From NCBI RefSeq assembly GCF_002982075.1, contig NZ_PUEJ01000008.1:62001-126000 (forward strand): 64,000 bases of DNA, read 5' to 3'. Positions 43,108 to 64,000 of the stretch are shown here, in pieces; position 1 is the stretch's first letter; each line of letters opens with the position of its first letter. Both the position numbers and the translations under genes were made by a program. Under the pieces are notes generated by a model. It made no database searches. It worked only from the letters and a program-made list of their open reading frames with translations, and was not told the origin of the DNA. Source of the DNA: Labrys okinawensis (lineage in GTDB: Bacteria; Pseudomonadota; Alphaproteobacteria; Rhizobiales; Labraceae).

Positions 43108-46100
43108 TCATTTTTTTCGAGTCCGTGCTCCAACAAGCTCGATATGCCACGGCTCGTTCGTAAGCGGAAATATAAGGCCATATTTCCTTGCATTGGCATG
43201 CATCCAATTTTTCGCAATGAGCCCAGCAGCAGAAATCCTTGCCCCGTTCTTAGCACTCGAATGATCATATGAGAGATCCATTGCGTTGCCAAATCCATGT
43301 TGCGATTTGCCTGGTGGTGCAACCCAACGACGTGCAACTGCAGCGGAGCCATATTTGATCAGTGCTTGATCCCAGAGTTCCTTTTGCCTTTTTGGCGAAC
43401 GATACCCAGACACAATAGACAGAGCTTTTCGTACTTCGGGTGGTGCATCGTGAAGCATTGCAGCAAGTTGCTTTCGTAACGCCGGCGCCATGCCAAGCAC
43501 ATGCGATTTGTTTTGTCCCTTTCGAAGAATTTTCAAGAGTTCGCCCGTTTCTGCGGAGGCGGCGCGCGCATTTCCTTCCGAACCGAGTTCTCCACGAGAT
43601 GTCGTGTCAAAATCCATATCTTTCGGAACACCTGGCGGAAGTTTTCTGGCGCCGTCGACGATATCTTTTTGATCCAATCTGGCCGAGCGCGATGTGTCGA
43701 CCGATGTCTGGAAATCCATTTCCATCTCGGGAGCATTCTCAATGAGATAAGAGATGACGTCCTGACCAATAGGAAATGTGTCGAATCTGGATTTTGTACC
43801 CATATTTTGGGCGCCGTTGCCCATCTGCCCATTAGCTATTCCGATCAAGTTGCTGGTGGTTGCGGTTGTCGGGCTAGCATGCGCTATTTGGGCCACTTGA
43901 ACCGGCGCCACCCCTTCTGGCTCCCGTACAAACATCCCTGGTACCCAACCATCCTCTTCCAGGCTGGCTCGGTCTCGATCAGTCTGCGCGATAGCAGCGA
44001 GGCGGTCGCGGCCGTTATTGCGCATGGCATTCTCGATCATGCGGGTCCGAACGGTTTCGGCGCGGCTGGTGCGCTCGTCGCCGGTAAGGCTGGAGCCGAG
44101 GGCCTGGGCGGCGGCGGTGCCGAGATCGATGGCGGGACCGGAGAGGGAGCGCATTGGGGCCGGGCCGGCGGGGGTGTTGGCTGCGGCGGCCGGGCTGGCG
44201 AAGGAGGCATCATCAGCGCCACCCGTCGCCTTGCCGCCGGTGCCGAGTGCGGCGGCAGCGAAGCGTTCTGCCAGGGGCGCGTTGCCTTTGGCATAGGCGA
44301 TGGCGGCATATTCCAGCGCCGGCGGCAGGCCCGCCGATACCATCTGGCCGAAGATCGCTTGCTGCGCCCCGGGGTCGGCGCTGGCGGAAAGCGCGGCGCG
44401 CAGGGGTACCAGCCGCTCGGCCAGCGACTTGCTGCGATCGCCGAAGGCCGAGAGCGCCTGATCCACCATCGCTTTGGGCAGCAGCGCCCGTCCCTCGGTG
44501 GGCATGCCCAGCCTGTCCATGGCGGCATTGGTGGCTGCAAGCGCCGCCCTCAACCGCTCGGGCGAAGTACCCGCGTCGGTCCACAGCCGGTCGATCTGAG
44601 GATGCAGGCTGCGGACATAGCCATTCGGATCCTTGCGGCGGAATGCCTGGTCGAGGGCGATGGCCTTGATGCCCCGCTCATGGAGCTGGCGCTGCGTCTC
44701 AAAGGCGGGGCCTTCGCCTTTCGGCGCGCGGGCGGCGAGCCAGACGGTCTGCTCGGCCGGCGTCATCGCCCGGATGGCGCTGATGTCGGCGCCGAGGCTC
44801 ACCGTGCGCTGGAAGTCGCTGTAGCGGCGCGCGCCGTCCTGCGGGCCATAGCTGGCGGTGAACTCGGCCTGGGTCGGCAGCTGGCCGTCATAGCGGCCGA
44901 TGGTGGTCAGGGCCTGCGTGGCGTCCTGGATACGCGGTTCCAGGTCGCCCTGGGCCACGGCCTGACCTTGGCTGCGCTGGCCCCGGGCGTAAGCGACCAG
45001 CCCGTCGCGCTGATCCGGCGCCAGGGAGGTGACGACCGGATCGGGCGCCTTCTCCTCGACCTCGCCCGGCTTGTAGTCGCCTGCGGCCAGGCGGCGCGCT
45101 TGGTTGCGCCTGTTGTCCCAGCCATGCGAGGCGGCGGCGCCGCCCTGCGATCCGGCCGGGCGCTCATAGTCGGTCACGAACACGCCGGCGGCCTCGTCGG
45201 CCGTATTGGTGGCCCGCAGCCTGGCCTTCACGCCTGCATAGTCCGTGTTCAGCTCGTGATCGACGAAAGCGAGCTGCACGGAAAGATCGCGCCAATCCTT
45301 GCCCCTGTCGGCCGCGAAGGCCTTGAGGCTCTTGGCGCGGGTGCCGTTCCACTGGGCGATGCCGACACTGTCGGAGCCGTCCGAACCGTCGCCGGGGTTG
45401 CGGCTCGAGGGGGCCAGGCCTGCGCTCTCATGCACGAGATTGCCGACGATGCCGGCCGCCTGCTCCCGGCTGTAGCCGCGCCCGATGAAATAGGACATCG
45501 CGGCGGATTCACGGTCCGCCTGGGCCGGGCCGATCGCGCCTTTGGGAATCGTGGTCTTGGCGCCCCAGACGAGCTCGTGCATCCTGTCCGGATCGCTGCC
45601 GGCCATGCCCTTCGCCCATTCGATCGAGGAACCGGCGGCGATGTCCCGCTTCAGCCGCGCCCTGTCGGCGGCGGGGATCGAGGTGGCGCCGTCGATCTTG
45701 GCATTGAGTGCGGCGAGCGCCTGATCGCGCCGAGAGGGATTGCTTCGGATGCCGACGAGGGAGGCCTGGTAGGCGGCGGTGATCGCATTGGTTTCGTAGG
45801 TGCCGCGCCCCTTATATTCGAACTGGCTGGCCTCGTTCATCAGGCCGTCATTGAAGATCTGGAGGTCGGCGGCGACACGCTCGCGATTGCCGGTTGAAAT
45901 GCTGCCGAGAAAGGCGGCGTCGGCCTTGGCGCCCGTCTTGGCGAAGCCGGCGGTAAAACCGGTCGCTTCCGCCGGCATCGTCTTGGCGGCCTCGGCAAGC
46001 GCGGCCTGCCGCTGCTGCTTGTAGAGGCCGAGCTTGTTGTCGTCGTCGAAGGCGGCTTCCTGCCGGGCGCGCTTTTGATAATGCGCGAGGCCGATAGCCG

Positions 46101-46386: not shown

Positions 46387-48120
46387 TTATTCCGGCGCGC
46401 CGGCCATACCGTTGCCGAGAATGGCGGCAGCCTGGCCGACCGCCGGCATCAGGTTCTTGGCCGCCTCGCCGCCGGTCTTGGCCATTTCGAGGGCGGCCTG
46501 GGCCTGCTGCATCTGCTGCTTGGCCTGCCTGATGGCGTCGCGCTCCTCGGTGGTCTTGAGGATCCTGTGGGGGGCGCCCTCGATCTCGGTGACGGTCCGT
46601 GCGATGGCGTCGAGGTCGAAATTGTCGACCACGCTGGGATCGACCTGCGCCAGCGGCAGCACGGTGGAGAGCGTGCGCTGAATGCCGATGCCCTCCTGGC
46701 TGCGGCGCAGGCGATCGAGCGGAGAGGTGAAGCGCGCGCCGAACTCCCGGCCCTTGAGGCTGTCGGGCGGCTCCAGCGGCGAGCCGGCCTGCATCGCGCC
46801 CTTGCGCTCCATGATGCCGGCCAGGCGGTCGACGTCGCGCCCCATGGCGATCTGGATGCGCCCGCCGGCTGGCCCCAGCAATTCGCCCTTTTCATTAGCC
46901 CGGATCATCGCCTCCGTCGCCGTCATGTTCGGGTTCTGGATCAGGATCTGGAACAGCGAGACATAGAGGCTGTCATTGATGGACTGGCGCTCGGCCGCCA
47001 GGATCTCGTTGACGAAATCGGGCCGGGCGCCGGGCTGGAGCGGGACGATCAGCTGCCGGCCGTCCTGGCTGACCGCGCGGTAGTTGATCTTGCCCGGATT
47101 GAGGTTGGGCCGGTTCATCACCCCGTCATGGGCGACGCCCCAGGGCGGGTCCATATAGCCCTGCAGCCCGCGCAGCGAGAGCTTGCGGATGGCGTTGAGG
47201 CCCTTGATGTCGGCCATGGCCAGCATCACCGGCGACTGGGCATAGGGGCCGTCGACATCCACCGGCGCCCAGTAATAGACGATGAAGGGGAACTCGTAGA
47301 AACCGCTCTCGCCGATCAGCTTCATGTGGTCGCGGTCGACATAGAAGGAGGCGAAGGGCGCCTTGCGGTTGGTGCCGCCACCGGAGCCGGCGCCCATTCC
47401 GGTTTCCCGGCGCGGCTGCACGGCATGGATGACGGTGAAGGCGCGATCCTTCTCCGCCTGGTTCTCGGCCGCCCTCACGACCTGGTCGGCAAGCTTGTCC
47501 GGCCCGAATTGCTGCACCATCTGGCGGGCCGTCATGGTGAACTTGCGATAGAGCGTGTCGGGCTCGCCCTGGGCATCGACGGCGAGATAGCACTGGCTGA
47601 GCGGCAGATGGCGGTAGAGCACCGGCGCGGCGGCGCTGCCCGCGCCGAGATTCTCCTCGGCGAAGGAAATGCCGGTGCCGAGCGCGATGGCCGAGCGCAG
47701 CGCCTTCTGGTGGGCGCCGATGAAGCCGGAACGCGGGTTGTAGCGCACGGCGAACATGTAGTCGCGATAGCGCTCGAAATACTCCTTCTCCTCGTCGCTT
47801 TCCTCGGGCGCGAGCGGATCGGTGGCCGCCAGCCCGTGCCATTTCTCGGACTGGGGCGTCACCAGGCTTTCCATGCCCGAGGCCAGCCGGTCGACGGCGC
47901 GCATGGCGGTGTCGTCGAAGCGCTGGCGCCCGCGCTCCACCGCAACCGGCGCCTGGGCAAAATTGTCATAGGCGCTGGGATTGAGGGAGGAGGAGCCGGG
48001 CAGGAAGCGATAGGTGTCGGGCAGGCAATAGGTGGCGATCTCCTGCCAGACCGCCTCCCATTGCGTGCGCTGGTTGGCGAGCGCATCCAGGCGCTGCACG
48101 AGGTCGTTCTCGATGCTCAT
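46387..48120 (-). CDS. Portal (head-to-tail connecting) protein
   Basis: 577 aa from ATG 48120. Matches the podovirus head-tail connector family: TQWEAVWQEIATYCLPD, RFDDTAMRAVDRLASGMESLVTP, EKWHGLAATDP, ALGTGISFAEENLG, FPFIVYYWAP and a C-terminal Gln/Ala-rich helix. The dodecameric portal nucleates head assembly and passes DNA. The toxin paralogue 1 gene lies immediately downstream instead of the usual scaffold gene. Confidence 0.92.
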   Translation of the reverse strand: MSIENDLVQRLDALANQRTQWEAVWQEIATYCLPDTYRFLPGSSSLNPSAYDNFAQAPVAVERGRQRFDDTAMRAVDRLASGMESLVTPQSEKWHGLAATDPLAPEESDEEKEYFERYRDYMFAVRYNPRSGFIGAHQKALRSAIALGTGISFAEENLGAGSAAAPVLYRHLPLSQCYLAVDAQGEPDTLYRKFTMTARQMVQQFGPDKLADQVVRAAENQAEKDRAFTVIHAVQPRRETGMGAGSGGGTNRKAPFASFYVDRDHMKLIGESGFYEFPFIVYYWAPVDVDGPYAQSPVMLAMADIKGLNAIRKLSLRGLQGYMDPPWGVAHDGVMNRPNLNPGKINYRAVSQDGRQLIVPLQPGARPDFVNEILAAERQSINDSLYVSLFQILIQNPNMTATEAMIRANEKGELLGPAGGRIQIAMGRDVDRLAGIMERKGAMQAGSPLEPPDSLKGREFGARFTSPLDRLRRSQEGIGIQRTLSTVLPLAQVDPSVVDNFDLDAIARTVTEIEGAPHRILKTTEERDAIRQAKQQMQQAQAALEMAKTGGEAAKNLMPAVGQAAAILGNGMAGAPE

Positions 48121-48139
48121 GGTGTGGTGCTCACTTGCT

Positions 48140-48349
48140 CTATTGCGTGCGGCCGAGCTGCTGGACATTGACGTTCTGGCCGTAATTGGGATCGCCGAGC
48201 CCGCCGGTGAGCTGGGTCTGAGCGGCGCCGTTCTGGTTGCGCACGCGGCGCAGGGCCGTCTGCACGGCGGCCTGGTTGGCGTCGTCCTGGCGGTTCGGCA
48301 CCGGCGGCGGCGGAGGCAGAGGCGGGGGCTTGGGCGCGCTGAAGCACAT
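48140..48349 (-). CDS. Small proline-rich phage protein
   Basis: 69 aa from ATG 48349: CFSAPKPPPLPPPPPVPNRQ then a short polar tail (NGAAQTQLTGGLGDPNYGQN). Proteins of this composition are regularly encoded just upstream of podovirus portal genes; role unknown. Ends 20 bp before the portal start. Confidence 0.65.
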   Translation of the reverse strand: MCFSAPKPPPLPPPPPVPNRQDDANQAAVQTALRRVRNQNGAAQTQLTGGLGDPNYGQNVNVQQLGRTQ

Positions 48350-48370
48350 GGTCTGGCCTTTCGTTGGGGG

Positions 48371-48609
48371 CGGATGCACGGGCGTCTCGCCCGTTCTTGG
48401 AGGTGATGTGTATGACGGGAAGAGGCGGACGAGACGTCCGCGGTCCCAGCCTCGGCGTTTTCTGAGCAAACTTTCCCGGCATCGCGCATGAAGCGATGCG
48501 GCTGGGACCGCGGACGTCACAGCGACATGTCTGCATGTCGCGGCGTCCGCCTCTTGGAGAGACTGCCTGCCGGAAAGGCGGAATGCGCGAGACGCCCGTG
48601 CACCCGGCT
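48371..48609. repeat. Cluster of REP-like palindromes upstream of the GNAT-like gene's 3' end
   Basis: Contains TGCACGGGCGTCTCGCCCG-TTCTTGGA (48377-48402, also at 58207-58233), a perfect 19-bp inverted repeat (48433-48451 with 48500-48518; core GTCCGCGGTCCCAGCC), and CAGCGACATG..GCATGTCGCGGCGTCC (48520-48555, matching 23657-23712). No gene. Confidence 0.75.
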
Positions 48610-49083
48610 TCAGGAGCGACTTCCCGTTGCCGCGTAAGTCACGAAATCGAGGCCGCCGCGACCGTAGTCGAGGGCAATTCCTTCCCGCCGAAAGCCCAGG
48701 CCTTCCAGCCAGCGATGCGAGAGATCATGGTCGATGGCGGTGCGCACCTCGATGCGGCGGAAGCCCTCCGCAATCAGCAACCGCCGCACGCTGCTTCTGG
48801 CGAAGCGGGTGACGGCGGGAATGGCCCGGCGCATCCGGCGCGTGCCATAGGCCCAGCCGGAGCCGAGGCCGGGAAACAGGCGGGTGACGCCGAAGGCGGC
48901 GACGGGATCGCCTTCGATCCAGGCCGTCCAGGCGAGATCGGTGGAGGAATGGAACAGCATGGTGCCGATGGCCGTATCGCTTTCCTCGATCACGGCGCGG
49001 ATCTCCCGCCTGTCCTGGTCACGCATGGTAGCGGCGATAAAGGTCATGTCCCGCAGCGTGGCGGGGCGAATGGTGACGGACAT
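48610..49083 (-). CDS. GNAT-fold phage protein (T7 gp13-like)
   Basis: 157 aa from ATG 49083. Features of the GNAT fold: SVTIRPATLRDMTFIA, AAFGVTRLFPGLGSGWAYG, RRLLIAEGFRRIEVRT and HRWLEGLGFRREG. GNAT-like proteins are encoded in this position in T7-like and related phages (internal virion protein A/gp13-type) and may be structural rather than enzymatic. Located between the toxin paralogue 2 block and the small proline-rich gene. Confidence 0.75.
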   Translation of the reverse strand: MSVTIRPATLRDMTFIAATMRDQDRREIRAVIEESDTAIGTMLFHSSTDLAWTAWIEGDPVAAFGVTRLFPGLGSGWAYGTRRMRRAIPAVTRFARSSVRRLLIAEGFRRIEVRTAIDHDLSHRWLEGLGFRREGIALDYGRGGLDFVTYAATGSRS

Positions 49084-49165
49084 GCTATCGGAAGCCTTGC
49101 TTGGGACCTCCGCGCTCACGGGGAGGACGAATGCTGCGACCAGGCCTGGCACAGGAGCGCCGGCA

Positions 49166-49335: not shown

Positions 49336-49779
49336 TCATTTGGGTTTGGGGGGCCATGTCAGCAGCGGTGAGGTCACGTTCTGCGTTTCAAGAAACTCCT
49401 TGAACATCTGGCGGATCGGCGGGAAGTCTTGGGTGATGCAGCGTTCATTCCAATCATGCTCATCGGGAAAGTCGATTATACCGGCTGGCCTTGCTTCATC
49501 GAACATGCAACGATATACGCGCTCTCCATCGACGACATCGTAGAATTCTATTTGAAAATTTCCTTGATGCGCTTCGACATTCAGCATTTTGTCGAGCGTC
49601 TTGCTGTCATTATCGTTGGCGTCGAGCCTGACATTTCCTGTGCCTTGCTGTTCGAGCATCGTTAGTTTCTCAAGCACTCGATCCCAAGGGGGATTGCGAA
49701 TGGAACGATGACCATATTGGTCGTCATCCAAATGCCAGCTAAGGCTTAGATGTTTGCGCAGTATTTCTGGCATCTTCAA
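49336..49779 (-). CDS. Putative immunity protein for the 49.8-kb deaminase toxin
   Basis: 147 aa. Its ATG overlaps the toxin stop by 4 bp (ATGA). Acidic and aromatic-rich, as usual for immunity proteins that neutralise a basic toxin: SLSWHLDDDQYG, YRCMFDEARPAGI, DWNERCITQDFPPIRQMFKEFL. It aligns by eye with the protein at 60689-61099 (WxxVLxKLxxL, NVxLxxxxxxxKxL, FDE, DWxxRxIxxD, MFKEFLETxNVxSP), and both follow the same type of toxin. I think it belongs to a DUF6911-like group but cannot confirm. Confidence 0.72.
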   Translation of the reverse strand: MKMPEILRKHLSLSWHLDDDQYGHRSIRNPPWDRVLEKLTMLEQQGTGNVRLDANDNDSKTLDKMLNVEAHQGNFQIEFYDVVDGERVYRCMFDEARPAGIIDFPDEHDWNERCITQDFPPIRQMFKEFLETQNVTSPLLTWPPKPK

Positions 49780-52700
49780 TCTCCGTCCGATGCGGTGAAT
49801 TTTGGATCTCCGCTCTTCCAGTATAGTGTCTTGCCGCTAGTTTGTTCGTAGATCGTCCATTCCTTCAATCCGGCTTTCTCGGCGGCTGCGGGAAGGTGCT
49901 CACGGCAGGAGGGGCATAGATCGCGTCCTGACACGACCATCCTCAAGCTCCTGCCTTGTGTGCGGCCTTGGTCGTAAAGCTGCTGCAAAACATATAGCTC
50001 AGCATGCGCATCATACATTGTCTCATTCGGCCTTGTACCGTCGCGAGAGGGTGGTCTGTTCTCTCTTCGTACGGAGTCTGCAGCCAGTGAGTCTTTATTC
50101 TTATCGCCTCGATCAGGCCTGGATCCCGGATTGACGGAGTAGATCGGAGGGCCATCAGTCTGACCGATAGTAAATACGTCTGGCTGTGGCAGTGTTCTGT
50201 TGTTGTTTTTTTGATAATGGAGAGCTTTGGTTGCCCAATCTTCCTTAACGCCTGCTAGTTTCTCAAGAAAATCTTTGACCCAATCGGTTTCCGGTGTCAC
50301 CCTTCGCGGTGGCGGTGACTGGCCGCCACCGCTGGCGCTAAAGCTTCCCCCTGAGCTGGGATTATCCGTCCGAGTTCGATAGGCGGCTTTGGCGACCTCC
50401 AAAGCAAGTGCCGAGTTACCTGTTCGTTTTAGCTCGGAGTCATAAGTGACCTCGTCATAGGGATTGTCCTTGGTCCAGACAGGGCGATGGATCGCTGGCT
50501 CTTTGGCTGGCGAGGCATTGGGGATGCCTGGTGTGCCGATTGGGATCGGATCCGATTGCGGCGCATCGGCCTCCCATAAAGGCTTGGGCGGCGTCCCCCA
50601 CCATGCTCCGGGCATCGGGTCTTTTTGGCCGATTGCCTGCTGAACCCAGTTGGTCAACCGCCCACGCGGGCGTATGGCTGTGACCGTGACCGTGCCGTCT
50701 GCTTCTTTCTCCGGTGCAAAGGCGATGTCGTAGCTGAGGCCGTCCCAGCTGGTCGCCGTATAGTAGGGCTGCGGATCTCCCTGACGTTCGGCACGCATGA
50801 GCTGGAACCGGGCGTCCTGTATCGCGGAGTTCACATTGCCGATTTCGATGGAGAGGGAACGCTCCTTGAATTCCGCCGGAAGATCGGGAGCAAAATCCTT
50901 TTGGCCGTCCAGAAAGAGGCGCGTTATCGCGGGCGGTACAAGAACCTTGCCGAGCGGATCGACCGGGACGTAGTAGCTTTTGGGAATTGAGGTATCGGGA
51001 TAATTTTCGGAGCCTTCCTCGGGTTGAGGCCAGATGCTGTTGCTGATCTCGCCGCCAATTATGCCCAGGAGCCCTGCTCCGAGCCCCTTTCCAATCTTGG
51101 ATTTCCCTCCCGGGAGCGGAGCTGGCATTCGGCTTGCGCCATCGCTTTGAGTCGCACCAGGAAAGGCTGGATTGTTCTCGGTGTTCTGGAAGGCCAACTG
51201 CGTACCGGCGCCGGCCATGGGTGCCCGCATGAACATCCCCGGCGCCCAGCCATCCCCTTGCAGGCTGGCAAGATCCCGGTCGGTCTGGGCAATGGCGGCG
51301 GGGCGGTCGCCGCCATTGCTGCGCATGGCGTCTTCGATCATGCGGGTCCGAACGGTTTCGGCGCGGCTGGCCCGCTCGTCGCCGGTGAGGCTGGAGCCGA
51401 GGGCCTGGGCGGCGGCGGGGCCGAGATCAATGGCGGGGCCGGAGAGGGAGCGCATCGGGGCCGGGCCAGCGGGGGCGTTGGCTGCGGCGGCCGGGCTGGC
51501 GAAGGAGGCATCCGCCGGGTCGCCCGTCGTCTTGTCGCCGGCGTCGAGGCTACGGAGCGCGGCCGTGGCAAAGCGTTCTGCCAAAGGCGCGTCGCCCTTG
51601 GCATAGGCGATGGCGGCATATTCCAGCGCCGGCGGCAGGCCCGCCGATACCATCTGGCCGAAGATCGCTTGCTGCGCCCCGGGATCGGCGCCGGCGACGA
51701 TCGCAGCACGCAAGGGCGCCAGCCGCTCGGCCATCGGCTTGCTGCGATCGCCGAAGGCGGCGAGCGCCTGGTCGACCATCGCCTTGGGTATGAGGCGGCG
51801 CTCTTCCACCGGCATGCCCAGCCTGTCCATGGCGGCATTGGTGGCCGACAGGGCCGCCTTCAACCGTTCGGGCGAATTGCCTGCCTCTTGCCAAAGCCGG
51901 TCGATCCGGGGATTGAGCGCCCTGACATAGGCATTGGGGTCCTTCGACCGGAAGGCGAGATTGAGGGCGATGGCCTGCCGGGCCCTGGCGTAGCGATCCC
52001 GTGCGCCATCCGGATCGGGGCCATCGCCCTGGGGGGTGAAGCGGGCGAGCCAGGCGCTCTGCTCGGCCGGCGTCATTGCCTTAATGGCATCGATATCGGC
52101 GCCGAGGCTGACGATGCGCTGGAAGTCGGCATAGCGCTGTGCGCCCGCCTGCGGGCCATAGGCCTTGGTGAAATCGGCGATGCCGGGCAGCGGGCCGTCA
52201 TGGCGGCCGATGGTGGTCAGGTCCAGCGTGGCATCCCGTACGCCGGATTCGAGGGCGCCGCGCGACAGCGATTCGCCCTCCCTCCTGCGGGCGGCAGCCT
52301 GGTTGAGCAGCCGGTCCTGTTCCCGTGGCGGGATGTCGGCAAAGGCAGGATCGGCCGGGGCGTCGGCATAGCCGGGACCGGCGGAATAGATGGGCTGGCC
52401 GGCATCGGCGCCGAACATAGCGGTCTGGCGCCGATAGACCTCGGCGAGCGAGCGGGCGCCGCCGCTGTTGTGGTCGTAGAACACCCCCTTGTTGCTGGCG
52501 GCCGCCGCCGGGAACAGCTCGGCGGCCGATTGCTCCGGGTTTTCCCGCAAGGCCTGCAGGAATTTCACAGCGCCGGTAGCGCCGAGGAAATGCGCCATAT
52601 AGGTGTTGGCGCCGGTGATCGGCAGCCCAGCCTTGGCAAGAGCGGCCTGGTTGTCGGCCGTCAGGGCCCGCATTGCCCTTTCCTGCTGGTCGGGATCGCC

Positions 52701-53315
52701 GCGGCCATCGGCGGAGAGCTCGAGGCCGGGATGTTTTTGCGCCAGCGCTGCCCAGGTTCCGGCGGTGAACTGATAGCGGCCCACGGCGACGGTCTGCCCG
52801 TCCGGGCCCCGGCTTGCCGCCTGGTCGTTGCCGCCGCTCTCGTGCTGGCGCACCAGACCGAAATAATCGAGGGCGCCGGGCGAGGCCGCGACCGGGGTCT
52901 CGCCGAAGGCGGGAAGCGGCAGGGTGCCCACCGGTTCGCCATAGAGCCTCTGCAGTGTCGGCCTGGCCCAGGCCGGGGCCTTGGCGAGCGTGGCCTCGAT
53001 GTCGGGCGTGCCGTCCGGCTTCTTCAGGCCGCGATAGGCATCGGCCTCATCGAGCCCCCACACGGTGGGCGCCTGGCGGGTATCGACATGCAGGGACCTG
53101 CCGCCGGCATAAAGGCCGATGCCGCGGGCGCCGCTGGCGACGGCGGCCGCCAGGATGGCAGCCTTCTCAGCGTCCGACTTGCCGGCGATGTCGATGTCGA
53201 GCGCATTGCCGGCAAGATGCTGCGAGCCCCTGGCACCGCCCGCGGCGGCATTGGCGGCCTGGTCGCGCCGGCCGGACTTGACCTTGAGCTCGGGCACGAC
53301 GCCGGCCGCCACCAT
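49776..53315 (-). CDS. Giant peptidase/lysozyme phage protein with cytidine-deaminase-like toxin tip (toxin-module paralogue 2, main ORF)
   Basis: 1179 aa as an ORF, but the frame stays open to about 53489 and the true N-terminus is in the -1 related ORF to 54070. Order: M15-like peptidase fold (SQHLAGNALDID and LHVDTR at DNA 53085-53230), lysozyme-like domain (LVRQHESGGNDQAASRG, VGRYQFTAGTW at 52430-52880), the region shared with paralogues 1 and 3 (51300-52300), a PYDxxxYD-type repeat (50372-50465), and a deaminase domain with zinc ligands HAE and CPSC (49790-50010). The tip is a typical polymorphic toxin deaminase acting on nucleic acid or nucleotides. An immunity gene overlaps by 4 bp. 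Confidence 0.8.
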   Translation of the reverse strand: MVAAGVVPELKVKSGRRDQAANAAAGGARGSQHLAGNALDIDIAGKSDAEKAAILAAAVASGARGIGLYAGGRSLHVDTRQAPTVWGLDEADAYRGLKKPDGTPDIEATLAKAPAWARPTLQRLYGEPVGTLPLPAFGETPVAASPGALDYFGLVRQHESGGNDQAASRGPDGQTVAVGRYQFTAGTWAALAQKHPGLELSADGRGDPDQQERAMRALTADNQAALAKAGLPITGANTYMAHFLGATGAVKFLQALRENPEQSAAELFPAAAASNKGVFYDHNSGGARSLAEVYRRQTAMFGADAGQPIYSAGPGYADAPADPAFADIPPREQDRLLNQAAARRREGESLSRGALESGVRDATLDLTTIGRHDGPLPGIADFTKAYGPQAGAQRYADFQRIVSLGADIDAIKAMTPAEQSAWLARFTPQGDGPDPDGARDRYARARQAIALNLAFRSKDPNAYVRALNPRIDRLWQEAGNSPERLKAALSATNAAMDRLGMPVEERRLIPKAMVDQALAAFGDRSKPMAERLAPLRAAIVAGADPGAQQAIFGQMVSAGLPPALEYAAIAYAKGDAPLAERFATAALRSLDAGDKTTGDPADASFASPAAAANAPAGPAPMRSLSGPAIDLGPAAAQALGSSLTGDERASRAETVRTRMIEDAMRSNGGDRPAAIAQTDRDLASLQGDGWAPGMFMRAPMAGAGTQLAFQNTENNPAFPGATQSDGASRMPAPLPGGKSKIGKGLGAGLLGIIGGEISNSIWPQPEEGSENYPDTSIPKSYYVPVDPLGKVLVPPAITRLFLDGQKDFAPDLPAEFKERSLSIEIGNVNSAIQDARFQLMRAERQGDPQPYYTATSWDGLSYDIAFAPEKEADGTVTVTAIRPRGRLTNWVQQAIGQKDPMPGAWWGTPPKPLWEADAPQSDPIPIGTPGIPNASPAKEPAIHRPVWTKDNPYDEVTYDSELKRTGNSALALEVAKAAYRTRTDNPSSGGSFSASGGGQSPPPRRVTPETDWVKDFLEKLAGVKEDWATKALHYQKNNNRTLPQPDVFTIGQTDGPPIYSVNPGSRPDRGDKNKDSLAADSVRRENRPPSRDGTRPNETMYDAHAELYVLQQLYDQGRTQGRSLRMVVSGRDLCPSCREHLPAAAEKAGLKEWTIYEQTSGKTLYWKSGDPKFTASDGD

Positions 53316-56197: not shown

Positions 56198-57643
56198 TCA
56201 ATAACTCAGCGGGTCGTAAGGCTGCGGTTCCGGGCGCATCAGGTCCAGGGCGGCCGGGTTCATTGTCGCAAACCTCAACATCATGATCAGGTACCGCGTG
56301 GCGCTCATCAGGTCGTCGCGCTCCTTCACCACCTTGCCGTCTTTGCGGTGATAGAGGCGGAACTCCTCCCACCACTCGTGGAGGTGGCGCGAGACCTTCA
56401 GGCGGCCGGTGCGCATGCGGTCGAGCAGCAGCATCAGCCCGGCCTCGACGCCGTTGGAGCCGTCCTCGAAGCGGGCGTGCTCGGGAAGCATCGCGAGGCC
56501 CTGGCGGCGATATTGCTCGGCGAGCTGTTCGCCCGAGCCCTTGTCGTGCTGCAACCCGTCATGCGGCCAGGCCCAGGGCAGCCAGTCGCCCCAGGCCCTG
56601 AGCGCCCCGGCATGCAGGAGCGGTGTCTGCTCGCGCGCCCGGAAGGCCCGGGTGAGATAGACCACGTCGGCGTCGCGGTCGTGATAGCCCATCACCGCGG
56701 CGAAGGGGTGGTCCCAGCCGAAATCCATGGCGCCGAGCGCCGGCCAGAACGGCTCGGGCCGGATCTGGTCGACGGCGATCATCGCCTCCTCCACCGGGAA
56801 GATGCGGCCCGAGCCGAGGATGGGAATGCCCTTGGCCCGGGCCTCGCGCTCGTGGACGGGATAGGCGGCGACGATGCGAGCCCGCATTTCGGGGGAATAA
56901 TGGCCGGCATCGTCGATCGTCATGGTGGTGACGCTGCGGTCCCGGCTCGCCTCCGAGAGGAAGCGCCGCACCACCTCGGACATGCCGAGCAGCGGCGTGA
57001 AGGTCATCCAGGCGATGCCGCCGGTGGCGTTGGTGCGGGTGAGGCCCTCGGTATAGATGTCCTCGGGCGGCTCCTCGTCGAACCACAGCCAGTCGAGCGT
57101 CTCCCCCTGCCATTTCTCGCGGCCCTGCTCGTAGGATTTGAGCCCGATGGTGGAGGTGCCGCCGCTGACGTGGCGGACGCGGATGGAATCGATCAGCCCG
57201 GGCGTCGAGCGCGCCGAGACCAGGCCGACGATGTCGGCCCCGGGGATGGTGCCCGTGCCCACGGCCTCGGCGCGCCCCACCAGCATGCGCTGCACGGTGT
57301 CCCGCGTGGCGAGGCCGGTGACGCCGGCGGCCCAGGCAATCGTCGGCTTGTCGAAGCGCCGGCCCTGCCACCAGGGCGGATATTTTCCGGTGGCATGCAT
57401 CGCCGCCTCGGCGCCGCCCGAATAGGTCTTGCCGAGCTGGTTGCCCGCCATGAACAGGCGTTCGCGATGCCCGGCGCCGGCCTGGTGGAAATCGGCCTGG
57501 CGCGGATAAGGCCGGTAGCGGGGCAGCCAGTCCGTGTCGAAGCGGCGCTTCTTCTCAGCGAGCAGCCTGAGCAGTTCCGATTTCAAGGCCGGCGCTCTGG
57601 CATTGGCGGAGGATTTCGCCGATGCGCCTGTCGAGTTCTTCAT
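56198..57643 (-). CDS. Terminase large subunit
   Basis: 481 aa. Walker A-like AGNQLGKT, DWLWFDEEPP (Walker B with catalytic acid), a C-motif region TFTPLLGMSE and, in the nuclease half, GAMDFGWDHPFAAV and HDGLQHDKGSGEQL. It pumps phage DNA into the prohead and cuts it. The start overlaps the small upstream gene by 89 bp. Confidence 0.93.
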   Translation of the reverse strand: MKNSTGASAKSSANARAPALKSELLRLLAEKKRRFDTDWLPRYRPYPRQADFHQAGAGHRERLFMAGNQLGKTYSGGAEAAMHATGKYPPWWQGRRFDKPTIAWAAGVTGLATRDTVQRMLVGRAEAVGTGTIPGADIVGLVSARSTPGLIDSIRVRHVSGGTSTIGLKSYEQGREKWQGETLDWLWFDEEPPEDIYTEGLTRTNATGGIAWMTFTPLLGMSEVVRRFLSEASRDRSVTTMTIDDAGHYSPEMRARIVAAYPVHEREARAKGIPILGSGRIFPVEEAMIAVDQIRPEPFWPALGAMDFGWDHPFAAVMGYHDRDADVVYLTRAFRAREQTPLLHAGALRAWGDWLPWAWPHDGLQHDKGSGEQLAEQYRRQGLAMLPEHARFEDGSNGVEAGLMLLLDRMRTGRLKVSRHLHEWWEEFRLYHRKDGKVVKERDDLMSATRYLIMMLRFATMNPAALDLMRPEPQPYDPLSY

Positions 57644-58585: not shown

Positions 58586-59032
58586 TCAACTCTCAGGCAG
58601 TTTCAATTGCTTGCGCCATTCACCCAGCAGCACGTCGGACAAAAGCTCCGAGACGACTCCACTGGAAATGTCGCCGATATCCTCGCCATCGAGCGTGAAC
58701 TCGATTTCGGCGGAATATCGGAAAGACTCATCGGTCAGGAAGTCGATGATGCTCTTGACATCATGGTAGCTTCTGATGTCGTCGTCCCTGTCGACGTTGC
58801 CTTTCAAGGTATCGAATATCTTTAGTTCCCCGCCAATAATAAAAGGACCTTCTTCTTCGCCTTCGTCGCCGTCTTCTCTCTGGAACAGGATTGGAGGATT
58901 GATGGCCCAGCTTCGGCTTTCCGTGAATGCCTCGAATTTTTCAGAAAAAGCCTCGACAAAATTCTCGAAGATCTCTCCAAAAACAAAAAACGAAAAGAAG
59001 CAAAATTTTGTTTTCTTGAAGGAAGGTTTCAT
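58586..59032 (-). CDS. Candidate orphan immunity protein
   Basis: 148 aa; ATG 59032 has a perfect GGAGG site. Basic and phenylalanine-rich N-terminus (KKTKFCFFSFFVFGEIF), then an acidic middle (REDGDEGEEEGPF) and DRDDDIRSYHDVKSIIDFL, acidic like many immunity proteins. I recognise no family. No toxin precedes it directly, so it may protect against a toxin tip encoded elsewhere, or be a leftover of cassette exchange. Confidence 0.5.
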   Translation of the reverse strand: MKPSFKKTKFCFFSFFVFGEIFENFVEAFSEKFEAFTESRSWAINPPILFQREDGDEGEEEGPFIIGGELKIFDTLKGNVDRDDDIRSYHDVKSIIDFLTDESFRYSAEIEFTLDGEDIGDISSGVVSELLSDVLLGEWRKQLKLPES

Positions 59033-59126: not shown

Positions 59127-59396
59127 CTATGGATCATCTCTAGGAAAAACCTGATCTTCCGGGTCTAATTCCACACCGTCACGATAAACAGTGGCGATGC
59201 TATTTGGCCATGCATGCACCATTACGTATTTTCCTGCGTATTGAATTTCAAAGTTGTCACCAGGTTCGCCGCCGACACCCGTAATTGTTAAGTGTTCATC
59301 TGGCTCCAATGTAAAAAATTCAGCAAATGGTTCTAGTATGACGAGAAGATTGTGTTTTGCGCTATTAACGATGTGAAGATCTGTTTTGTATTCCAT
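59127..59396 (-). CDS. Candidate immunity protein for the orphan toxin fragment
   Basis: 89 aa, starting 4 bp after the toxin fragment's stop, with a GGGAGGA site. Small, acidic beta-rich protein (HLTITGVGGEPGDNFEIQY, YVMVHAWPNSIATVYRDG) that ends EDQVFPRDDP. Family not known to me; its position and size fit an immunity gene. Confidence 0.55.
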   Translation of the reverse strand: MEYKTDLHIVNSAKHNLLVILEPFAEFFTLEPDEHLTITGVGGEPGDNFEIQYAGKYVMVHAWPNSIATVYRDGVELDPEDQVFPRDDP

Positions 59397-59400
59397 TTCA

Positions 59401-60559
59401 TTAATCCTCCCAGTAATTTAAGATCGTCTGCATCAATTTCATTCTTGTGGGGGCGACGTAGTTGTTGTTGTTTCTCGAGAAATCATTCTGATATATATTA
59501 AACCAATATTCAATCATGGACTTTGTTGTACCTGCTGCTTTCATGCGTTCGATCTCGGAAGCGTTGATTTCAGACTTTCGCCTAAGTATTTCATCAGGGG
59601 AGCCTCTCCATTTCAGCACTTTATCCCCGAAATCAGTTCTGCTCATTCCTGGTGGGTGCGGGCGGTCCTTCAGTTTTGGAATCTGGGGGCTTGTGACACC
59701 TTTGCCCCGCTTGGTTGGCCTATCCTGGTCAGCTGAGAAATTTGATGTGCCTTCCTCGTTTCCAGGCGAAATACTGGGAAAGATGCCCCGCTTTCTTTGT
59801 TGGAAAGCTCCTTTGAGGCCTCATATGCAACTTCGCCTGAATGGCCTTCCCTGGTGAGGCGATCATAGTCGCGGCGATCATAAGGCTCGTCCGTAGAAGA
59901 TGGCGGAGGTTGAAAGTCTGGGTTATTTAATGTTCTTGTTTTGTTCTTGTCAAGATTGCTGTTTGTGTCATTCACATTGAAGATTTCGGAGCCACCGTCG
60001 TGATTGCGATAATTATTGATTGCCGTCGCTAGGGCCTGCCGTCTGTTAAGTCCTGCCTTTCGGGCAGCATAGTAATCGCCGGGATCGAAAGGCTGATCCG
60101 GGCTTGAGGCGGGAAGCGGCTCGACGAGAGGCTCGGAGCCGTTTTCGCCGTCATCGCCGCCTGCGGGTGAGCTCAGGTCCGGAGGCTGCGCGGTGGCAGG
60201 GAATATGCCGAAGGTACCGAGAGAGGAGGCTCGCGGTTGCTCCGGCGGGGGCTTTCCAATTCTGGCCAGGGCTGGATCGCCCTCGGGGATGAACCAGCGC
60301 GTTTCCCAAGCAGCCTGACGTCCTTCCTGTCCTTCCGGAGTCGGTTTGGCTTGGGCCCCTTGCTGGACCGCCTGCATGGTGCGGGCAATGGAGTAGGCAT
60401 AGGCCGGATTGCCGCCGGGGATGTGTACAGGCTGTCATAGACCGCCTGGTCATAAGGTGCCGCGGCGGTCTGGGGAGGGCGAGGTATCGGACCCGCCTGT
60501 CCGCCATCGAAGGATGGCCACACATCCGGTTCTCCGGACGTCGGCGTCCGGCGCGCCAT
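59401..60559 (-). pseudogene. Degenerate orphan toxin cassette (repeats plus DUF4951-like tip), two frameshifts
   Basis: Three ORFs form one degenerate coding region. From ATG 60559: PYDQAVYDSLYTS, then a -1 shift at a CCCC run (about 60418) into GGNPAYAYSIART and the ORF 59670-60377, with PFDPGDYYAARKAGLNRRQAL and PYDRRDYDRLTREGHSG repeats; a second -1 shift at a GGGG run (about 59790) leads into PKLKDRPHPPGMSRTDFGDKVLKW, which fits the DUF4951-like domain of bacterial toxins, ending at 59401. No transport or lysozyme domain is present, so it is an orphan C-terminal cassette. One extra C and one extra G would repair it. Confidence 0.65.
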
Positions 60560-60688: not shown

Positions 60689-61099
60689 TCACGGGTAGAG
60701 CCGTGGTGAGACGACGTTTAGAGTGTCGAAAAACTGCTTGAACACGTCATAGACCAAATCGTAGTCGGTAAAGATGATACGAGCATCCCAATCGGCGCCT
60801 TGCATTTCGTATTCGCTCCATGGGATATTTTCGTCGAACGATACACGGCGAAATGGTTCGCCATTCTCTCGATCATTGAAGACGATAAAGAAATGATCGT
60901 TCTGCGCATAGGCACTTAAGGATTTTCTATATTCCCGTTTTCCATTATCATATTTTAACGTTACCGAGCCGTCCTCATGATGTAAGGATTCCAATTTACT
61001 CAGTACTAAGTTCCAATCACAATTTGACTGACCACCTCCACCCTCTGGACGAGGAATGTCACGAATGAACCAACTAATATAGAAACCATTCTTGATCAT
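60689..61099 (-). CDS. Putative immunity protein for the 61.1-kb deaminase toxin
   Basis: 136 aa from ATG 61099, overlapping the toxin stop by 4 bp; the longer frame from 61147 runs into the toxin. Homologous by eye to the immunity protein at 49336-49779: CDWNLVLSKLESLHHEDGSV, FRRVSFDENIPW, DWDARIIFTDYDLVYDVFKQF. Both follow the same class of deaminase tip but are diverged, as expected for specific toxin-immunity pairs. Confidence 0.72.
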   Translation of the reverse strand: MIKNGFYISWFIRDIPRPEGGGGQSNCDWNLVLSKLESLHHEDGSVTLKYDNGKREYRKSLSAYAQNDHFFIVFNDRENGEPFRRVSFDENIPWSEYEMQGADWDARIIFTDYDLVYDVFKQFFDTLNVVSPRLYP

Positions 61100-64000
61100 T
61101 GGGAGTTTTCCTCTGCTTGCATAATTTCTTCCATATCGGGATGCCAATATTTGGTATGCCCTGTCGCCGTTTCATAGATGATCACACCTTTGAGCTTTGC
61201 AGCGCTTGCGGCCCTAGGGATGTCGCGCTCACACCATCCGCAAACATCGCGTCCGTTGACGACCAAGTAGAGAAGTTTACCTTCAGTTTGACCTGCCTCG
61301 TGAAGTTTCTGGATTACGACGATTTCTCCGTGACTGTTTTTCAGTGCCTCATTCGTCATCGGCCTGCCGCCGAATTTATCTCGTCTTGCCTTATCGAGCC
61401 GAACTTCATCCGCAGCAAGACTGTCTTGGTCAGCAGCATTGTAGTCGAAACGAGCCTTTTGACTCATGCTGAAGACTGGCGCACCGTCAGTGACGCCGGC
61501 GACTGTAACGTCAGGTTGTCTTTGTTGGATACCGGTTTCGATTTGCTGTTGGCGTTCTCTAACCGTCCAGTCGGCATAGCCCTGAATGATTGCTGCCCGG
61601 AGAAAACGGACCCAGGATGTTTCGTCATTGGCTGGCTTTGGCGCTTCTCCGTCGAGCGGATAGTCGGCTACCGTTGGCGCCGCCCCGCCCTGACTGGCAT
61701 CCTTGATCCGTTTTTGCAAATCGGCTTTGGCAGCCTCCAAGGCATCAGCCGTATTCATTTTCGCGTCCCGATGGTAGCTGTAATCCGCCATGTCGATATG
61801 TTCGCCCGGACCAAGAACAGGTGGGGGATATGACGGGCTTTTCGGTGACTTGTTAGAAACAGTTGGGACGGGAAGGCCATCTGTGCCTTTATTTGGAGGT
61901 GCGGAGCGATAGGCATTCCTGGCCGCTTTGAGGGCTGCTCGGGGACTGCCGGTTAATATCAATTCGCTGTCATACTTCTTCTCATCATAAGGATCGCTTG
62001 GATCTTGAGGAGGGCGAGGTGGCACAGTCGGAGGTGAGGCGCCGCCCTTGTAGGTTTCGAACCCACTTCCCTTGTTGCGATAGTTACTGATCGCGGTGTC
62101 TAGAGCCTGTTGTCTAGTCAGACCCGCCTTACGGGCGGCATAGTAGTCGCTAGGGAAGAAGGGCTGATCCGGGGGCGAGGGCGGAAGCGGCTCGACGAGA
62201 GGCTCTGGGCCGTTTTCGCCATCTTCGCCGCCGGCAGGTGAGTTCAGGATCGGAGGCTGCGCGGGAGTGGGGAATATCCCGAAGGCGCCGAGAGGGGAAT
62301 TTCGCTGTTGCTCCGACTGGGGGATCTTGGGTATTCTTTGCGAGCCAAGTGGTACCGTCCCTAGCTTCGGTTCCGTGGCCGGAGCGGGCTCTATCTCCGG
62401 CGCTGGCGTGCCGGACCACGGACCGGCTGGGGCACCTTCGTCGTGGACGAACCACCCGGAAAACCAGGCAGCTTCACGCTTGGATTTCCGCACTGCGACG
62501 ACTGTTGCTTCGCTATCGGCGTTAGGCCCACGAGCGAAGGAGAAGTCGTAGTCACCGACCGTGTAGTACGGTCGGTAGCTGCCGTCGACCTGATCGGCAA
62601 ACAGGTCTCTTCGTGCTGCAACGAGCGCGGTGTTGAAGTCGCCGAACTCTGCGGACTTCGCATGCGCATCCATCCCCACATCATCCCGGCGCGGAAGTGC
62701 CTCGACCTGGCGCTGTATGAAGCCCGTTATGGCGGGTCCGATGCGTGTCCCACCGAAGGGAGAAAGCGAATAACTCGATGGTACCGGCGAGTCGGGATAG
62801 GGTGCCGAGGCGTCTTGGGGCCGCTTGGCTTCATCGAACAGCAGCAAGCCCAAGGGATCTGCTCCGCGGCTACCCGGATTTCGTCGGAGCATTTCATTCG
62901 CTGACGGGGGCAGGGAACGCGGCTGCGTGGAGCGCTGACGATCTGGGTTTGCTGGGCGAGGCTGCGGAGGCAGTGTCTTGAGCGCGTTGTCATTCACTGG
63001 CTTGGCGGTTGTGGCGCCTGGCCTTTGGATGACCGCCTTGCCGGCATTGTCGACGGTGGCGCCGGGCGATGCGGGTATTGCAGGGGCGGTATTGACATTG
63101 GCCGGCTTGCCCGACCCCTCGGGGATCTCGAAGGGCGGATTGGCAGGCTTATTCGGGGTCGACCCCGTTACGCGGGCACCGCCATTGTCCTGAGCCATGC
63201 CGACGCCCGGCTGTACGTCGGTGACGGTCCTTGGCTGGGCAGCGGCATAGAGCGAGGGGCTGGCCCGGCGGATGGCCTGGCTGGCCCGGGCAACGGCGTC
63301 GTAGGGGTCGCCACCGTTCAGGGACAGGGTGTTCTGGACTATATTATCAAATAATTTGGCTGTGAGGGGATCGAGACCATTCCTGCCGGCTGCTTGCAGC
63401 CTCGCCAGTTCGCTGGCCATGGCGGGGCCGAGATCGATGGCGGTGTCGGTGCGCACCGGCTGCCAGGCGGCACGGGTGCCGGCAGCACCCGCTCCGCCGC
63501 GCAGGGCGAGCGGGCTCGTCGGCGCGGTGGAGGCGGCCGAGTCGGCGGGCTGGGCGAGCTTCGCGCCGGCGGCCGGCTGTGGGTGCCGGTTGCCGAAGGC
63601 GGTATTGGTGCCGAAGGCCGCGAGGAGCAGGCGAGCGGCGTTGTCGTCGTCGCCCCTGCCATAGGCGGCGAGCGCCGGCGCGGCGAGGCGCGGCAGGCCG
63701 AGTCGCATGGCCTGGGCGAACAAGCCGGCCTGCTGGGCGGGATCGTCGGGCGCGGTGATCAGGGCGCGGAAGGGAGCGATGCGTTCGGAGAGCGGCCTGG
63801 CGGTGTCGCCGAAGCGCATCAGCGCCTTGTCGATCATCGCCTTGGGCAGCACGGCGCGGCCCTGGGCGGGCAGGCCCAGCCCGTCCATGGCGGCGTTGGT
63901 GGCCGCCAGCGCTGCCTTCAGCCTGTCAGGCGAATTCTCCGCCTCGGTCCAGAGCTTGTCGATGGCGGGATAGACGGCCCTGACATAGGCGTTGGGGTTC
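61096..64000 (-). CDS. Giant phage protein with cytidine-deaminase-like toxin tip (toxin-module paralogue 3), 5' end outside window
   Basis: The frame is open to the right edge, with NPNAYVRAVYPAIDKLW and LKAALAATNAAMDGLG matching paralogues 1 and 2, so the N-terminus is missing; at least 967 residues are visible. After the shared helical region (63300-64000) comes a Pro-rich linker (TAIDLGPAMASELARLQ; GIFPTPAQPPILNSPAG), three PYD-type repeats (62080-62165, 61905-61998, 61715-61800) and the deaminase tip with zinc ligands HGE and CGWC (61115-61340; GRDVCGWCERDIP). The tip resembles that of paralogue 2. Its immunity gene overlaps by 4 bp. GC falls sharply in the tip. Confidence 0.78.
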   Translation of the reverse strand, partial: NPNAYVRAVYPAIDKLWTEAENSPDRLKAALAATNAAMDGLGLPAQGRAVLPKAMIDKALMRFGDTARPLSERIAPFRALITAPDDPAQQAGLFAQAMRLGLPRLAAPALAAYGRGDDDNAARLLLAAFGTNTAFGNRHPQPAAGAKLAQPADSAASTAPTSPLALRGGAGAAGTRAAWQPVRTDTAIDLGPAMASELARLQAAGRNGLDPLTAKLFDNIVQNTLSLNGGDPYDAVARASQAIRRASPSLYAAAQPRTVTDVQPGVGMAQDNGGARVTGSTPNKPANPPFEIPEGSGKPANVNTAPAIPASPGATVDNAGKAVIQRPGATTAKPVNDNALKTLPPQPRPANPDRQRSTQPRSLPPSANEMLRRNPGSRGADPLGLLLFDEAKRPQDASAPYPDSPVPSSYSLSPFGGTRIGPAITGFIQRQVEALPRRDDVGMDAHAKSAEFGDFNTALVAARRDLFADQVDGSYRPYYTVGDYDFSFARGPNADSEATVVAVRKSKREAAWFSGWFVHDEGAPAGPWSGTPAPEIEPAPATEPKLGTVPLGSQRIPKIPQSEQQRNSPLGAFGIFPTPAQPPILNSPAGGEDGENGPEPLVEPLPPSPPDQPFFPSDYYAARKAGLTRQQALDTAISNYRNKGSGFETYKGGASPPTVPPRPPQDPSDPYDEKKYDSELILTGSPRAALKAARNAYRSAPPNKGTDGLPVPTVSNKSPKSPSYPPPVLGPGEHIDMADYSYHRDAKMNTADALEAAKADLQKRIKDASQGGAAPTVADYPLDGEAPKPANDETSWVRFLRAAIIQGYADWTVRERQQQIETGIQQRQPDVTVAGVTDGAPVFSMSQKARFDYNAADQDSLAADEVRLDKARRDKFGGRPMTNEALKNSHGEIVVIQKLHEAGQTEGKLLYLVVNGRDVCGWCERDIPRAASAAKLKGVIIYETATGHTKYWHPDMEEIMQAEENSQ

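Follow-up and report, generated by a model that had tools for sequence, protein, structure and literature searches.

The stretch of DNA analysed here (the window) comprises 64 kb of the 6.5-Mb genome of the soil bacterium Labrys okinawensis (G000; contig C21, positions 62001-126000). A podovirus-like element extends from about 26.2 kb to past the window end. Its structural genes are on the minus strand and include endolysin, tail fibre, a gp14-like protein, tail tubular proteins B and A, major head protein, a protease/scaffold-type gene, portal and terminase. The element also encodes three paralogous proteins, referred to as carriers A, B and C, which have in common an N-terminal region (about 180 residues) and a helical middle (about 400 residues) and terminate in separate C-terminal domains, referred to as tips.

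Carriers, tips and partner genes in the window

Carrier A (1042 aa; 43108..46236; minus strand, as for all features in this section) is composed of the shared N-terminal region, a Phage_lysozyme2 insert at residues 243-382 (45091..45510; Pfam PF18013, E=4e-32), the middle and a VanY tip. Carrier B (49776-54070) occupies two frames, owing to a frameshift near 53490. The N-terminal open reading frame (ORF; 53024..54070) contains the shared N-terminal region and is out of frame with the remainder after about 53490. The C-terminal frame (49776..53552, within which the ATG-started ORF is 49776-53315) encodes M15_3, a transglycosylase-like domain, the middle, a pre-toxin region of about 180 aa with a WWGTP motif at its end (50574..51113) and a Deam_C tip. 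Carrier C (1313 aa; 61096-65037) has its 5′ part outside the window, the in-window stretch being 61096..64000, and consists of the shared N-terminal region, the middle, a pre-toxin region (62389..62928), a linker and a Deam_C tip.

Identity in the N-terminal region is 45% between A and B, 48% between B and C, and 36-38% when A is compared with C and the counterparts of C. In the middle it is 69% between A and B and 38-45% between A and C. Between these two regions A has Phage_lysozyme2, B has Peptidase_M15_3 with the transglycosylase-like domain and C has nothing. The first-pass annotation of this DNA had assigned lysozyme/peptidase-type N-terminal regions to all three proteins. Their paralogy, the common N-terminal region and the common middle were borne out, but the hydrolase is an optional insert that C does not have.

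The tip of A (43129..43485) matches VanY (Pfam, E=1.5e-18), contains the motifs QHGFGNAMD and EPWH and has a GC content of 0.49, compared with 0.69 for its carrier. The tips of B (49788..50189; motifs HAE and CPSC) and C (61114..61527; motifs HGE and CGWC) match Deam_C (Pfam, E=4.9e-50 and 1e-49), in agreement with the earlier assignment of one peptidase and two deaminases. The overlap of both deaminase tips with the following genes was likewise seen. It is 4 bp in each case, and both neighbours belong to DUF6911 (Pfam, E=1.2e-14 and 1.1e-16). These are the probable immunity genes of tip B (49336..49779) and tip C (60689..61099). The start of the latter, an internal ATG at 61099, was chosen by comparison with a relative; the longer TTG-started ORF would overlap the tip by 52 bp.

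About 50 bp after A lies a Peptidase_M48-like gene (42390..43058; GC 0.44) with a hydrophobic N-terminus, whose product may act with the VanY tip as its periplasmic partner. No match to it was found in the compared regions of the other genomes. When seven window proteins and tips were analysed with PADLOC, the sole result was a weak capP match of this M48-like protein, and an NCBIfam scan of eight proteins gave no toxin name.

The H-x-E and C-x-x-C motifs were invariant in all six deaminase tips aligned, and the spacing between them was 30 in each of the six full-length tips checked. The structure model of the tip had a predicted local distance difference test (pLDDT) score of 90. In VIA-align, 41 of 50 rows for this model were judged to be deaminases; the best was DYW (7o4f, Z 9.8), and the others included DddB/BadTF3 (9k3e, Z 8.5), Bacillus subtilis cytidine deaminase (Z 8.1) and DddA (6u08, Z 7.0). 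The remaining nine rows were, by title, TOD4/TOD6 (four) and BubCD (five). As modelled, the tip is a deaminase fold bearing the zinc/catalytic motifs. A PDB sequence search with the deaminase tips gave no match. DeamC, listed as a possible effector from a type VI cluster of Salmonella, has been related to DddB (BadTF3) (PMC13304343). The B and C tips resemble DeamC and the DddA/DddB toxins in having a deaminase fold with H-x-E and C-x-x-C (PMC13304343), and differ from them in riding on a phage carrier, with a delivery that we infer.

The association of Deam_C with DUF6911 was also seen elsewhere. In both outside cases opened, a Rahnella plasmid and genome G422, a DUF6911 gene follows Deam_C directly; tip matches also exist in four further records. 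The Rahnella pair lies downstream of a filamentous haemagglutinin (CdiA-type) gene. At the end of a filamentous haemagglutinin gene on that plasmid, PLSDB lists a 300-base 'OXA beta-lactamase' (L111:1682-1981), which is probably a false call.

Tips and partner genes in related genomes

Labrys sp. KNU-23 (G001) and Labrys sp. WJW (G002), both among the nearest relatives, were used for comparison. The same three slots are present in both genomes. Homologues with invariant C-termini were looked for, and this is not what the slots contain: carriers A and C are 86-94% identical to their counterparts over the first 450-600 residues, and the ends diverge sharply and are mostly other domains. Identity was scored per 50-residue block along the carriers. 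Blocks of A were 82-100% identical to G002 up to residue 600 and 14-44% thereafter; the corresponding values against G001 were 70-98% and 16-47%. For B, comparison with G001 gave 56-98% to about residue 1000 and then 2-24%. C was 60-92% identical to G001 up to residue 600, with later linker blocks reaching 76%, and 0-34% from residue 901. Against G002, where the tip family is the same, C only dropped to 22-74% past residue 550, the last 13 residues being at 15%.

Slot A ends in VanY in G000 and in Deam_C followed by a DUF6911 gene in both G001 and G002. At slot B the end is Deam_C in G000, a tip without family in G001, with a partner gene overlapping by 4 bp, and a tip that looks lytic by eye in G002. 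Slot C has Deam_C in G000 and G002, and in G001 a tip without family together with a DUF7945 partner. Neither the VanY tip of A nor the lytic-looking tip at slot B of G002 has an adjoining partner gene. The slot-B carrier is a single open frame in G001 and is split in G002 (G002:C112:24117-28354) at a different place than in G000, as if it were dispensable. A programmed frameshift was considered as the explanation of the split in B and is unsupported, one relative being split elsewhere and the other having a single frame. In the region after slot B, G001 has an ORF which by eye resembles a repetitive extragenic palindrome (REP)-associated transposase (G001:C1:1976240-1976914, L042).

Synonymous divergence (dS) of carriers A and C was 0.125-0.353 in four of four comparisons, whereas for tips and partners it was at least 1 or saturated in nine of ten. 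The ratio of non-synonymous (dN) to synonymous divergence was 0.19-0.27 for the carriers in the four comparisons of A and C. For the tips, the two computable comparisons gave 0.125 and 0.142, the second at a dS of 2.1, near saturation; for tips and partners taken together, the ratio was 0.05-0.22 in the four of ten comparisons in which it could be computed. GC content was 0.69-0.71 in carriers, 0.49-0.52 in tips and 0.43-0.49 in partners. Ends that diverge while the carriers stay alike, together with the silent-site divergence and the low GC, thus indicate that the tips arrive as cassettes. The tips are kept working, as judged by their low dN/dS and invariant H-x-E and C-x-x-C.

Fourteen tip-partner pairs were listed where a partner-like gene was seen. 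Thirteen of them overlap (where the overlap exceeds 4 bp, its length rests on taking the first start codon) and the remaining pair is 2 bp apart. By Pfam, the partner families are DUF6911, DUF6985, SUKH and DUF7945. The pre-toxin region of about 180 residues stands before toxin-type tips. A profile of this region, built from four carriers (C, B, G001_4 and G002_A), matched six of 16 other proteins (G001_1, G001_2, G001_3, G002_C and two of G004), all of them Labrys copies without a lytic tip. It missed A, the lytic G002_B, an N-terminal piece from G004, G395, G003, G094 and G107_3.

Orphan modules were also present. Downstream of C, a degraded orphan tip cassette (58586-60377, minus strand) that the first-pass annotation had not listed begins with a fragment copying the C linker (59670..60377; 55% identity over 143 columns) with no in-frame tip. 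This is followed by a DUF4951 ORF, possibly an orphan tip (59401..59646; Pfam E=8.4e-16; solved relative 2mmb by PDB sequence search), and by two possible orphan partner genes without a Pfam family, a small ORF (59127..59396) and a 148-aa ORF (58586..59032). In G001, an orphan Deam_C with partner lies downstream of slot C (1964450-1965228), followed by a further Deam_C-tipped carrier piece. G002 has an orphan remnant and partner at 30640-31343. The Deam_C remnant there is 87 residues long, and the H-x-E part is gone from each of the three frames read; its partner is 94% identical to the G001 partner (dN 0.024, dS 0.466). An immunity gene kept without its toxin would be expected if neighbours or related phages have that toxin.

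In a wider search, a Labrys profile detected the middle in 10 of 397 relatives; a broader profile found it in 20 of 397 genomes of the order and six of 385 of the class, each count including G000 and the genome sets overlapping. Carrier C-termini across G000 and the relatives are diverse (VanY, Deam_C, WHH nuclease and tips without family), as the earlier reading of common carriers with different tips had proposed. In G004 a WHH/Colicin-DNase tip is paired with a DUF6985 partner; G107, which belongs to a different family of the order, holds three copies, and a SUKH partner accompanies one of these. Nine G107-type IMG/VR loci add a WHH tip (L118) and a SUKH-gene array (L115); the other five carriers, tips or remnants scanned in these loci gave no Pfam match. 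PDB sequence searches with the G001_1 and G107_1 tips found no relative. Scans of viral contigs with the WHH-tipped carrier of G004 and with the G395 carrier returned no relative. Against plasmid records, A gave lysozyme-only matches (best 20 of 25); against phage records only its lysozyme or VanY domain was matched (best 30 of 321), and no record covers 80%. The reading that toxin-type tips, accompanied by immunity-type genes, are exchanged on virion-type hydrolases of a podovirus kind is well supported, C being without the hydrolase, and the evidence for a polymorphic toxin system is strong.

Two observations were made alongside. The array at L115:3056-5344, which follows one carrier, is of partner type, with two look-alike 142-aa ORFs, a SUKH gene and a 155-aa gene, and by likeness would be a polyimmunity-like locus. 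G004 has two equal-scoring carrier copies far apart (C1:3262769 and 5273176) and four others, and its chromosome may hold several such elements.

Ejection proteins, proposed delivery and known toxin systems

The gene order around carriers in relatives was inspected. In G395 and G003, the single copy found follows a tail tubular B homologue (blastp), and in G395 a phrog_418 protein is directly before the carrier. A carrier ORF was seen at 17 of 18 further places. By eye, nine of the ORFs come after a tail tubular B-like gene together with a gp14-like one, and in eight of the nine the carrier is followed by a protein of about 1500-1850 residues (in one case after a fragment). Among the remaining ORFs, one is with a gp14-like gene only and seven are in other positions, truncated or unclear. 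G000 has its tail fibre directly after the gp14-like gene, where a carrier follows in several relatives instead; the multiplied copies are thus found elsewhere than at the usual place.

Matches to phrog_342 'internal virion protein with endolysin domain' were obtained for two relatives, G195 (E=1.9e-11) and G395 (E=3.5e-5). Protein p18 of phiV10, whose gene follows two annotated internal virion proteins, resembles the middle of G107_1 (E=2e-6). From its lytic domain into the first part of the middle, B resembles proteins annotated as internal virion protein D or internal core protein, which come from three E. coli phages (E=3e-6). With a low-confidence model of residues 1-800 of A, the best VIA-align row was the PhiM1 pre-infection ejectosome (8vb2, Z 8.9, 189 residues), and a cyanophage pre-ejectosome was at rank 8 (Z 6.4). 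A PDB sequence search with the middle gave no convincing match. Sequence similarity, the order of genes in relatives and a fold match that is weak together point to a relation of the carrier to podophage ejection (internal virion) proteins. The carriers are like T7 gp15/gp16 and the ejection proteins of PhiM1 and epsilon15/phiV10 in the position held in relatives, in being helical proteins, some with a lytic domain, in the phrog_342 match of one relative and in the weak 8vb2 match. They are unlike them in that the copies in G000-G002 are multiplied, lie beside terminase and portal and mostly carry toxin-type tips accompanied by partner genes.

Ejection proteins are described as preceding the DNA out of the head, and lysozyme domains are swapped among them; the C-terminus of T7 gp16 is presumed to reach the cytoplasm (PMC8954989; PMC11440229), which would offer C-terminal tips a way in. 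The main text of PMC8954989 contains no word starting with 'toxin'. The constant N-terminus with varied C-termini, the downstream partner and the orphan modules, all seen here, are features by which polymorphic toxin systems are recognized. From the sequences at hand, we consider it probable that the locus encodes a polymorphic toxin system carried on relatives of ejection proteins and delivered by particles. According to this scheme, the podovirus-like element would make several versions of an ejection-type protein, whose shared N-terminal region and middle would pack into an ejectosome inside the head, and the insert in some carriers would open peptidoglycan. The C-terminal end would be a swappable cassette of pre-toxin region, toxin and overlapping immunity gene, the last protecting the producer. 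Once a particle has bound to a cell, its ejection proteins would exit the head first and carry cytoplasm-acting tips, such as the putative zinc deaminase of B and C, into the target; cells without the matching immunity gene would be harmed and carriers of the element spared. The comparisons show tip exchange, partner genes and selection; packaging, injection, toxicity and protection are steps that we infer.

Several points weigh against this interpretation. The case is drawn from sequences and structure models. The phrog entries for A and B are phrog_992 ('head protein') and phrog_1044 ('endolysin') and not phrog_342, and none of the three carriers is at the usual ejection-gene position after tail tubular B and the gp14-like gene. 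The model of A 1-800 is poor (mean pLDDT 55), and a Z of 8.9 is within the chance range of helical proteins and only a hint. Foldseek with the deaminase tip gave nothing at E<=0.001. Deam_C is rare, being found in two of 385 genomes of the class, one of them G000; tip B had no match among 50,697 phage records, and no isolated phage bearing this carrier was identified there. Three copies whose tips are of toxin type (G004b, G107_1 and G107_2) escaped the pre-toxin profile. Carrier B is frameshifted and slot B of G002 is split. The VanY tip of A and the slot-B tip of G002 look lytic and not poisonous, and some tips may serve entry.

The lytic-type tips at slot A of G000 (VanY) and, by eye, slot B of G002 would also suit a different explanation, in which the carriers are entry proteins only and the tips, whether deaminase, nuclease or peptidase, are infection factors acting in the phage's own host, following the logic of 'polyvalent proteins'. 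The tips would then serve anti-defence or host take-over, and the partners would protect the phage or lysogen from its own factor. Phage multi-domain proteins joining lysozyme or transglycosylase to effector domains are known, some near cassette-like ORFs (PMC5512222). Against this, tip exchange and overlapping partner genes are signs of toxin-immunity rivalry, as are the purifying selection on the orphan partner beside the toxin remnant in G002 and the occurrence of the Deam_C-DUF6911 pair at a CdiA-type locus; we regard the explanation as unlikely. The placement of partner genes directly after the toxins, as in toxin-antitoxin operons, and of the element at the same site in relatives raises another possibility, namely that the tips are prophage-borne toxins which never enter particles and act after lysis or as an element-stabilising toxin-antitoxin pair. 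A stabilising pair, however, needs neither a 600-residue virion domain nor tip exchange, and the N-terminal region and middle, related to ejection-type proteins, are under purifying selection at the carrier dN/dS given above. We give this possibility a low probability.

Known systems were compared with the carriers favoured here as toxin-bearing relatives of ejection proteins. Phage-head delivery of polymorphic toxins has already been proposed for MuF proteins (PMC3482391; PMC5576092). MuF toxins of temperate phages, among them Apk2 (PMC12226406) and Bxa (PMC11699363), are similar in having a conserved head-module N-terminus, a variable C-terminal toxin and downstream immunity genes, and in the proposed loading in the head and delivery with DNA (PMC3482391; PMC5576092). 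They are found mainly in Firmicutes prophages (PMC5576092). The Labrys carriers differ in their relation to ejection proteins, in the lytic inserts of some, in lying on a podovirus-like element of an alphaproteobacterium and in numbering three to four per element in three Labrys genomes. A MuF identity of the carriers themselves was rejected: MuF (PF04233) is absent from the Pfam matches of A, B and the in-window part of C, and a genome-wide search gave 0 matches, its control matching in 4/14.

With contact-dependent inhibition (CDI; CdiA-CT/CdiI) the system shares tip exchange, a pre-toxin region, an overlapping immunity-type gene, orphan modules and the Deam_C-DUF6911 pair. The Labrys carrier is, unlike CdiA, a virion-type protein and not a secreted filament, and no Pfam match to a TpsA-type secretion domain or haemagglutinin repeats was found in A, B or in-window C. 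The WXG-100 toxins of Mycobacterium abscessus are also polymorphic toxins with immunity genes on prophages; they differ in type VII export and in lying at the attachment site, not in the structural module (PMC8092301). Polyvalent proteins are likewise large phage proteins combining lysozyme or transglycosylase with effector domains, with cassette-like ORFs in one case (PMC5512222), whereas the toxin-type tips of Labrys have partner genes and are exchanged at fixed slots. The term 'immunity protein' is absent from the main text of PMC5512222.

In open-licence literature, nothing was found linking internal virion proteins to polymorphic toxins or to toxin domains with immunity, which leaves absence from print unproven. 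The carriage had earlier been called undescribed. This applies to the type of carrier, as toxins in phage heads were already described for MuF (PMC3482391; PMC5576092); the new part is the carrier (podovirus-like, Gram-negative, with several loaded slots) and not the idea of phage-head toxins. If the proposal is true, it would add a second class of phage protein beside MuF carrying polymorphic toxins, on the part that enters the target cell first. The system also offers a test of the question posed by MuF, whether phage particles inject toxins and who gains.

Chromosomal site and neighbouring genes of the element

DNA similarity between G000 and G001 runs through both flanks (host sides 82-92%), and with G002 it runs through the right flank, the contig ending at the other side. 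The element is thus at one chromosomal site, with both flanks seen in one relative and one flank in another. When an empty site was looked for in other Labrys genomes, G004 had the two flank genes at a great distance from each other, and in G003 only one of them was located. The lysis end of the element is bordered by a tRNA-Arg. No word of at least 10 bases shared with the tRNA-Arg end was found at 65-72 kb, and none of at least 14 bases to 80 kb. Matches to the tyrosine integrase (PF00589) and serine recombinase (PF00239) families were absent from contig C21, from 1.951-2.006 Mb of G001 and from contig C112 of G002, other recombinase types not having been searched, and PF00589 was absent from the G107 contig. 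An ordinary tRNA-integrated prophage was rejected, there being no tRNA-Arg repeat on the other side and no recombinase of the two families nearby. No replication gene was found among the ORFs scanned, which did not include every short ORF. A CI-like repressor is located outside the window, on the element side past its end.

The dN and dS values against G001 were 0.007 and 0.154 for the major head protein, 0.010 and 0.206 for portal, and 0.016 and 0.222 for terminase; against G002 they were 0.005 and 0.078, 0.005 and 0.102, and 0.012 and 0.119, respectively. The ratios for these three genes against both relatives are 0.045-0.10, which indicates that they are under strong purifying selection. 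The scaffold-type gene had ratios of 0.10 and 0.37 against the two relatives, and a DNA-binding gene gave an odd, partial comparison (dN 0.256, dS 0.123; G001 only). The dS ranges of element genes (0.03-0.75) and flanking host genes (0.21-0.74) overlap, which gives no clear sign that the element is younger than the DNA around it.

The frameshift in B, the orphan fragments and the lack of an integrase found nearby could be read as signs of a decayed, non-functional prophage serving as a hot spot for foreign cassettes, with functionally meaningless tips. The low ratios of head protein, portal and terminase speak against such decay, as do the catalytic motifs kept by the tips and the ratios of tips and partners where computable, and we hold this to be very improbable. 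Selection and the shared site fit an element that has long been in place and is useful; similar figures would result from recombination with related phages, or if an integrase now lost or unfamiliar had led to integration at this site more than once. A further, more tentative proposal, which we find rather doubtful as a whole, is that the element is a domesticated podovirus-like weapon, in which a long-kept, integrase-less Labrys capsid particle would inject polymorphic toxins into rivals through the ejectosome, with the immunity genes and the retained orphan immunity genes protecting kin. Such a weapon would perhaps also occur in other members of the order, in the G107-type lineage. If the element is domesticated, it would represent a capsid-based weapon of Gram-negative bacteria, and as such a short-tailed counterpart of tailocins and contractile injection systems.

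The structural genes near the carriers (all minus strand) were assigned by phrog matches. These are the gp14-like internal virion protein (35148..35765; phrog_418, E=5e-24), a tail tubular protein B type (35672..38137; phrog_376 'tail protein', E=1.3e-168), the major head protein (39754..40755; phrog_212, E=3.1e-86), the protease/scaffold-type gene (40780..41595; phrog_458 'protease' and phrog_3742), the portal or head-tail connector (46387..48489; phrog_332, E=6.3e-122), a small internal virion protein (48610..49152; phrog_308, E=5.2e-14) and the terminase large subunit (56198..57643; phrog_2, E=7e-36). The first-pass annotation had placed the carriers between portal, terminase and scaffold genes. 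Portal and terminase, and also the major head protein, were confirmed by these matches, and the scaffold label is by position only.

Between terminase and carrier B lies a 610-aa ORF (54188-56020) with a signal-like N-terminus and weak tail-fibre matches, which is without a counterpart in the G001 or G002 regions. Beside the tail fibre, a low-GC block (27942-32704) contains sugar-type genes (methyltransferase, formyltransferase and glycosyltransferase by Pfam) and a gene for a glycine-rich protein. The sugar-type genes are perhaps surface-changing genes, and the block recurs in Labrys relatives only in part.

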